Below, in pieces: positions 40 through 36,564 of a stretch of DNA of 64,000 nt. Position 1 is the stretch's first letter. Each line of letters starts with the position of its first letter. The stretch covers positions 1-64,000 of the forward strand of contig PGXO01000001.1 of the NCBI GenBank assembly GCA_002839185.1, written 5' to 3'. Below the pieces are notes generated by a model. The model had not been told where the DNA came from. It did no database searches and saw only the letters and a program-made list of their open reading frames with translations. Both the position numbers and the translations under genes were made by a program. The stretch is from Synergistetes bacterium HGW-Synergistetes-1. Lineage in GTDB: Bacteria; Synergistota; Synergistia; Synergistales; Synergistaceae.

Positions 40-282
40 GGGAAGCTGCCGTAAGAACACCGGCGCGAAGTGCGACATAAACATGTCGCGGAAAGCGGTG
101 GCTTAGGGAATGGGAATTGCGGCCAGTGTCATGCCGCGGGGAATTCGCGGACTTCGTCCTCTGGTGAATATGCGACATAAAGCGTCGCGGTGAATGAGAC
201 ACTAATGCTGCATCTCCGTCATCCAGGATCTATAGGTTTTGGTTTTAACAATTGCTTCCCAACCGCTTCCCAATTGCTTCCC
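40..282. repeat. Hairpin-rich intergenic repeat element with an 11-bp unit array
   Basis: Three tandem 11-bp units lie at 250-260, 261-271 and 272-282. Read on the minus strand they are GGGAAGCAATT, GGGAAGCGGTT and GGGAAGCAATT. They match in spacing and core (AAGC then two purines then TT) the units of the element at 33837-34261. A possible single left-end unit, GGGAAGCTGCC, lies at 40-50 and is followed by GTAAGAACACCGG, which resembles the left inner junction of the other element. Inside are two related hairpins: GCGACAT / ATGTCGC at 72-89 and GCGAC / GTCGC at 172-188. I read it as a degraded or variant copy of the same family; the left boundary is uncertain. Confidence 0.55.
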
Positions 283-33836: not shown

Positions 33837-34261
33837 GGCGAGCAATAGGCAAGCGGTCGGCTAGCAATTGGCAAGTAATTGTTTCAGGACAAAGCTAAGC
33901 AATTGCTAAGCGGTCGCTAAGCGATTGTAGAACCTTAAGAACCGGTCACTCTCTTTCGTTCCCGCACGTATCGGGAATCAAGAGTCTTGTAACTTATGCC
34001 ATTACTAGCATTTATAGATTTAAACAGAAGACACTGGATCCCGGCTCACGGCCAGAGAGCCAACGAGTTGCGAGTTGCGCGAATCGGCTGGTAGTTACAC
34101 CAGGTGCATACCGGGAAGACAGGAAGAGAAGCATACCGGGATAACAGAATATGGAAGCATAGTTGGATAATGAGGTAAAATTTTATAAGGTTCTACAACT
34201 GCTCAGCAACTGCTTAGCCATCGCTCAGCAACTGCTCAGCCGATTTTAACGACTGCTTGCC
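33837..34261. repeat. Intergenic element with inverted ends made of 11-bp tandem units
   Basis: Left end: four units GGC(G/A/T)AG(C/T)... at 33837-33880, a 13-nt break, three GCTAAGC units at 33894-33926 (GCTAAGCAATT, GCTAAGCGGTC, GCTAAGCGATT), then GTAGAACCTTA (33927-33937). Right end, read on the minus strand: one outer GGCAAGCAGTC unit (34251-34261), a 10-nt break, four inner GCTGAGC/GCTAAGC units (34197-34240), then GTAGAACCTTA (34186-34196). Both ends thus run outer units, break, inner units, junction, in mirror image. The 248-nt interior has a TTCCCG / CGGGAA hairpin (33959-33977), a GGCTC / GAGCC hairpin (34043-34061) and GCATACCGGGA twice (34106, 34131). No open reading frame of note. 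I read it as a non-autonomous mobile or structural repeat. Confidence 0.75.
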
Positions 34262-36467: not shown

Positions 36468-36564
36468 GGAGGCGAGTTTCAGCTGGTGCTGGGCCCGGAC
36501 TTCAAATCCGGTGGGGGTCGGTAACGCCGGTCCCGGTGTGTTCGATTCGCACACGCCTCCGCCA
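36468..36564 (+). tRNA. selC: tRNA-Sec, anticodon TCA
   Basis: A 97-nt tRNA with the anticodon loop CTTCAAA (36500-36506; TCA at 36502-36504), a 6-bp D stem (TTCAGC / GCTGGG), a long variable arm, TTCGATT T-loop and encoded GCCA end. These are the marks of bacterial tRNA-Sec. The acceptor pairs GGAGGCG with CGCCTCC; the eighth pair typical of this tRNA would be A75-A53 opposed, an apparent mismatch. It implies UGA recoding to selenocysteine in this organism. No selA/selB or clear selenoprotein is seen in this window. Confidence 0.93.

Follow-up and report, generated by a model that had tools for sequence, protein, structure and literature searches.

A gap between two genes in the window (the whole 64,000-nt stretch of DNA from Synergistetes bacterium HGW-Synergistetes-1 analyzed here) holds one copy of an array-framed, non-coding element, and the arrays that frame it belong to a family restricted to one genus of the Synergistaceae and one sister genus (g5). 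These arrays are built from variable 11-nt units that share one grammar and fall into several classes; they face inward, commonly in class-matched pairs, and often surround a dimer of CGTC-type REP units. In related genomes the sites of the elements are conserved while their content turns over. We interpret the family as genus-restricted, non-autonomous mosaic repeats in which frames would nest at palindrome centers and the arrays would be phased, putatively protein-binding ends, a reading to which we give about an even chance.

The element in the window lies between open reading frames that look like those of a XerC/D-type recombinase and a purine nucleoside phosphorylase, and the open reading frames between its arrays include no real gene. 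The mirror-image 11-bp arrays that a first-pass annotation had described at both ends are present (Table 1), as are the breaks of 10 to 13 nt that it placed between outer and inner arrays; the outer arrays that it had seen at both ends proved to be an array on the left but a single unit on the right. When the intergenic region that holds the element was shuffled 2,000 times with its dinucleotides preserved, no array appeared, and the real arrays exceed the scan threshold by 12-36 bits. The inner arms (33894-33937 versus 34186-34229) are 82% complementary. As annotated, GTAGAACCTTA occurs as two exact 11-mers on opposite strands, with no others in the window, but it is not a constant hallmark of the family: a linker of the form GTARRRNC... 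comes after most arrays, and GTAGAACCTTA is one variant of it. In a related genome, G006, the outer left array has an ortholog at the same place and the 13-nt break has a nearly identical counterpart (GTTTCAGGACAGA); spacers resembling the 10-nt break on the right are found in G006 and at G000:C4:322308 in the source genome (G000). The window contains a second array (250-282, minus strand, three GGGAAGC units), which adjoins a GCGGC..GCCGC hairpin, and also a selenocysteine tRNA gene at 36468-36560 (Rfam RF01852, 76 bits).

Table 1. Anatomy of the element in window coordinates; array scores are those of the position-weight scan.
Feature	Positions	Strand	Score or basis
Outer left array, class GGCRAGC, four phased 11-nt units, of which the third and fourth are degenerate (GGCTAGC, GGCAAGT)	33837..33880	+	31.8
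Break between outer and inner left arrays, 13 nt, GTTTCAGGACAAA	33881..33893	.	
Inner left array, class GCTRAGC, three units (GCTAAGC)	33894..33926	+	42.9
Left linker GTAGAACCTTA, variant of the general GTARRRNC linker	33927..33937	+	
Left REP-like unit, degenerate CGTC type, CTTTCGTTCCCGCACGTATCGGGAATCAAG	33953..33982	+	compared with intact units
Right REP-like unit, CACTGGATCCCGGCTCA ... GGTGCATACCGGGAAGACAGG, split by the 54-nt insert	34032..34123	-	
Insert of 54 nt in the right REP loop, cloverleaf-forming	34049..34102	.	9 copies
Right linker GTAGAACCTTA, mirror copy	34186..34196	-	
Inner right array, class GCTRAGC, four units (GCTNAGC)	34197..34240	-	55.8
Right break, 10 nt, CGATTTTAAC	34241..34250	.	
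Outer right "array", class GGCAAGC, single unit	34251..34261	-	

The array unit follows the 11-nt grammar G-N-N-R-A-K-C-N-R-T-N, in which a class-setting 7-mer is joined to a shared 4-nt spacer, NRTN. The core proposed at first, G-x-x-A-G-C-R-R-T-T, captured an 11-nt grammar but is better written in this form, as the final T is present in only about half of the units. About 1.16 Mb of G000 was sampled as stretches; the regular expression G..[AG]A[GT]C.[AG]T. found 46 arrays of three or four units and none in reversed sequence, and a weight-matrix scan found 103 arrays against none in the reversed control. The per-position frequencies come from regex-found units, so that positions 1, 4, 5, 7, 9, and 10 are imposed in them; the significance of the scan and of its reversed control is independent of this. 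Autocorrelation peaks at lags of 11 and 22 nt are present in the intergenic DNA of the same sample and absent from its coding DNA. The 7-mers define the classes GCTRAGC, GGCAAGC, G[GC]GAAGC, GTGAARC, GTCAAAC, and GNNAATC, and most arrays from the weight-matrix scan are class-pure. Units within one array differ at several of the 11 positions, yet grammar and exact 11-nt step are kept; the arrays are thus not ordinary tandem repeats, in which near-identical copies of one unit follow each other, and the original view of an exact period that does not stem from recent duplication is borne out. Between orthologous arrays of G000 and a relative about 93% identical to it, G001 (15 arrays, 43 units), positions 1, 4, 5, 7, and 10 changed in 5 of 215 cases (2.3%) and positions 2, 3, 8, 9, and 11 in 31 of 214 (14.5%; p = 3e-6 for the contrast), with most of the changes in five arrays; being clustered, they may reflect unit replacement as readily as purifying selection.

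The order of neighboring arrays at most 700 bp apart (+- 41, ++ 21, -- 26, -+ 3) shows that arrays face inward and nest. Innermost pairs are matched in class in 27 of 41 cases, against a permutation mean of 11.7 (0 of 10,000 permutations reach the observed value); the other 14 are mismatched, and some arrays have no visible partner. Layers sit class inside class with short hairpins interleaved. Stems of at least 5 bp are found in 67% of the distinct class-G spacers and 44% of the class C/D spacers, compared with about 2% after shuffling, and upstream of the arrays a hairpin with a stem of at least 6 bp is found for 73% of class C and 47% of class D (3.5% after shuffling). In a second type of module, copies of a constant 7-9-mer (GGNGAATTN; GTGAAGC or GCGAAGY) are separated by hairpins that vary in sequence and keep their stem. 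Frames also occur empty, as in the bare, guestless GCTRAGC palindrome at G000:C4:191686-191736, and those lacking REP units include several GNNAATC elements. A mini-element roughly 60 bp long, in which a GGGAAGC pair and a GGGAATC pair flank a similar center of about 17 nt (GTTAAGAGCCAAGTACC or close variants), is repeated at G000:C4:204081-204141, 210173-210233, and 226635-226695 and at C6:56223-56285. Another dispersed intergenic repeat, GAGTGATAACGACGCA...TACGTCGAAGCGAAGGACCTTGAG...GCTAAGTTAGCGC, often adjoins arrays (L004, L009, L011; for example, L004:1615-1900).

The interior of the element had been described as hairpins and a direct repeat without a gene. It is free of genes, and beyond mere hairpins it consists of a CGTC-type REP dimer, which is degenerate and carries an insert of 54 nt. 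Such a dimer forms the center of many elements. We counted 24 pattern-matching REP units in the 1.16 Mb of G000, nearly all with clear stems; their cores carry a CGTC (or TGTC/CCTC) tag, a stem of 8-9 bp, and a CCA tail, as CGTC REPs do in their core, and the window's own copy is degenerate, with a TTTC tag. Adjacent units mostly form the inverted dimers of CGTC REPs (+- 6, ++ 1). All but two of the 24 lie within 450 bp of an array, compared with 17% of random intergenic positions, and the arrays beside a REP unit point toward it, with a single exception. The 54-nt insert is a tiny element nested in the REP: all nine copies, that of the window included, occupy the same position in the loop of the right-hand REP, and insert and REP stem together fold as a three-hairpin cloverleaf. 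A REP core is also present without arrays, as an insert of about 210 bp at G001:C27:15652-15878 with the ends CAACTTTCCCACC/GGTGGGAAAGTTG and a direct duplication of about 14 bp, AATAAATTATGCTC, at its borders; the corresponding empty site is G000:C4:347103-347116.

Between relatives, the sites are conserved and what they hold turns over. In G001, an 18-nt gap stands in place of the 442-nt window element. The more distant G006 (85% identity) shares the outer GGCAAGC and left GCTAAGC arrays with the window site, whereas its core is different and the arrays within are of class GTCAAAC, indicating that the site was occupied before the lineages split; the short site in G001 is thus probably a loss, and not the empty site that had been sought in a close strain. 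About 13 of 16 array-bearing gap sites hold arrays in both G000 and G001, with contents that cannot be aligned, and the same sites usually carry arrays of different classes. One tRNA-terminator site, for instance, has a GNNAATC element in G000 and a GCTRAGC element in G001, each starting right after the T-run. G002 and G007 are more than 99% identical over most of their shared DNA; one of their elements has a common outer GCTRAGC frame around unrelated interiors of 254 and 308 nt, a swap that could partly be misassembly at repeats, as these are metagenome assemblies. No target-site duplication could be defined for array-bounded elements at the G000/G001 sites compared.

All genomes compared are draft or metagenome assemblies. 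With a 501-bp region of the window as query, blastn returned 24 scattered matches in its own genome. A three-unit GCTNAGC pattern is found in all eight members of the genus and both g5 genomes, with none in the backward control. Of 188 genomes across the phylum, eight carry a generic four-unit pattern: seven of the eight genus members and one of the two from the sister genus. The approximately 178 genomes outside these two genera lack this pattern. True arrays in the GTDB contig collection come from the Synergistaceae MAGs UBA6101, UBA1037, UBA1358, AS07, AS09, and STF1, and those look-alikes in other phyla that we examined are mostly runs of identical or near-identical units, that is, ordinary tandem repeats. 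IMG/VR contigs gave three short array matches. The first-pass annotation had named two ways in which it could be wrong, a lack of other copies in the genome or relatives and low-information chance matches. Neither applies: the copies are many, and the shuffles and the reversed control speak against chance. Arrays are denser in one region (G000:C4:180000-360000, approximately 30 per 100 kb) than in contigs C1 and C5 (2-3 per 100 kb). Clustering at the replication terminus is unsupported, with few arrays near the C1 skew switch (about 190 kb) and the dense region at C4 180-360 kb. Arrays avoid divergent-promoter gaps (2 of 44 versus 67 of 361, p = 0.018).

Anatomy and comparison together point to a likely mechanism of protein-bound phased ends, with new layers added at palindrome centers. 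Each layer is a palindromic frame, composed of an inward array plus its mirror, with 2-4 or sometimes more degenerate units of 11 nt to an array, and usually including a small hairpin and a 10-nt linker; the 11-nt step corresponds to approximately one helical turn. Frames nest, as GGCAAGC does around GCTRAGC in the window, with a CGTC-type REP dimer as the innermost guest, the loop of which can in turn carry the insert of 54 nt. A new layer most likely arrives by insertion at the center of an existing palindrome or by replacing that center. The arrays could then be phased sites bound by a protein, probably the layer's own recombinase or transposase, and would act as the ends used in movement, each array class with its own protein specificity. 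If this is right, the family would show in compact, natural form how the ends of nested elements can be marked by several DNA-binding specificities that share one 11-bp grammar, and REP/BIME-type repeats could be organized by phased protein arrays and nest at palindrome centers.

Neither a transposase or recombinase gene consistently inside or beside arrays nor an autonomous parent with the same ends was found in the 1.16 Mb of G000 sampled. A Y1/RAYT transposase was rejected as the driver, there being no PF01797 match in G000 or G001. The sole open reading frame inside an element encodes a GIY-YIG nuclease (Pfam PF01541; about G000:C4:221093-221485) and lies between CGTC REP dimers. We rejected the idea that it moved recently as a unit between G000 and G006, because the two genomes match at 97% over the whole 2.5-kb region, flanks included, at one and the same site. 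Related GIY-YIG genes have CGTC REPs within about 700 bp at 9 of 10 loci, compared with none of 45 control windows taken from those replicons, and these REPs are often 30-130 nt from the gene, on both sides. The ten loci come from alpha- and gammaproteobacteria (Photobacterium, Sinorhizobium, Neorhizobium, Rhizobium, Aeromonas, Shinella, and Azospirillum), where they lie on plasmids and secondary replicons; six GIY-YIG genes of the Synergistaceae genus that are more distantly related had no CGTC REPs around them. The enzyme for CGTC REPs has been reported missing (Di Nocera et al. 2013, PMC3733652), and our literature search found no description of a link between GIY-YIG proteins and REPs. From this correlative association the GIY-YIG nuclease is a candidate for the missing enzyme, and GIY-YIG genes beside CGTC REPs in several phyla would make it a testable one.

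The first-pass annotation proposed selection for either a protein-binding or a pairing geometry. Were pairing selected, the arrays would form the opposite sides of a long hairpin, in RNA or as a cruciform (an mRNA stabilizer, a terminator-like structure, or a cruciform), and the whole element does fold as one long hairpin (z = -5.5), its arms are class-matched, and the interleaved small hairpins keep complementary stems despite varied sequence. A test for covariation between left and right arms, however, gave no support for a stem: identity at spacer positions 8, 9, and 11 is 0.36-0.59 for matched arms and 0.38-0.52 for arms of different elements, so paired arms are no more alike at variable positions than unrelated ones. 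The arms are also unequal in unit number (three versus four in the window element), several elements start directly after a terminator T-run and would thus often go untranscribed, and the Rfam 15 covariance models gave no element match even at E <= 1. The lack of covariation between the arms disfavors selection for pairing and favors a protein-binding geometry; we consider the hairpin explanation unlikely and putative protein binding of double-stranded DNA the better reading. In a further reading, the arrays would be operators of a host regulator. OmpR/PhoB-type response regulators bind head-to-tail boxes of a 7-bp element and a 4-bp spacer, and the 7 + 4 = 11 arrangement and direct-repeat orientation of the units resemble these. 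That the arrays are operators of such a regulator is nonetheless very unlikely, given that they avoid divergent promoter regions, always form inverted pairs around a REP core or short center, comprise at least six 7-mer classes, and differ in class between species at a given site.

A reading that dispenses with a binding protein would take the arrays as mutational by-products (slippage, snap-back, or template switching at palindromes) that are tolerated without SbcCD. SbcD attacks palindromes in other bacteria, no family-level match to it was found in any of the eight genus members, three of which are at least 99% complete, and a 62-nt supra-unit is duplicated in tandem at G000:C4:309386/309448. 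SbcD is likewise missing from most array-free Synergistaceae relatives, and we therefore rejected its loss as a specific cause; moreover, slippage arrays elsewhere have identical or near-identical units, unlike these, and class purity, a fixed grammar, and constraint at conserved positions are not expected from slippage. We regard this origin as quite improbable. Somewhat unlikely, too, is an extension of our preferred reading to a new class of selfish DNA, in which frames of interchangeable specificity would insert center-in-center through a novel, diversified recombinase family, and REP guests would be spread by a dedicated GIY-YIG nuclease. Our preferred reading remains that of mosaic repeats with phased, putatively protein-binding ends.

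Several known systems share part of this design. The subterminal transposase-binding arrays of Tn7 ends and of plant CACTA/hAT elements likewise have repeated sites facing inward at both ends, if the arrays described here are bound as we infer; unlike them, the Synergistaceae family has an exact 11-nt step, several coexisting classes, and no associated transposase that we could find. BOX elements of Streptococcus pneumoniae are likewise non-coding intergenic repeats of modular build with a variable number of modules, but their three modules are fixed and share one orientation, and they are without 11-nt phased units or mirrored classes. MITEs (Nezha, Correia-type) resemble the family in being short, non-coding, intergenic, multicopy, and species-restricted, with terminal inverted repeats; the ends here, however, are degenerate phased arrays rather than fixed TIRs, and no autonomous partner was found in the 1.16 Mb sampled. 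BIMEs (bacterial interspersed mosaic elements) and GTAG REPs are similarly mosaic intergenic repeats of alternating orientation downstream of genes, but are moved by RAYT Y1 enzymes, a family with no match in G000 or G001, and the arrays are not REPs. Closest are the CGTC REPs (PMC3733652), which share core units with a CGTC tag, palindromic stem, and CCA tail, mostly in intergenic +- dimers. REP dimers lie within longer palindromes in both, as in A. variabilis GTAG-15 and H. neapolitanus CGTC-1 (PMC3733652, which makes no mention of Synergistaceae); the frames described here differ in being multi-class phased 11-mer arrays that are layered, far longer, and also present free of REPs. The initial impression of a design outside any named family therefore applies to the frame, of which our literature search found no account, and not to the center, which belongs to a named superfamily. 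Thus, interspersed mosaic REP/MITE-like DNA is a known kind, and the phased, multi-class array frame is, as far as we have searched, new.
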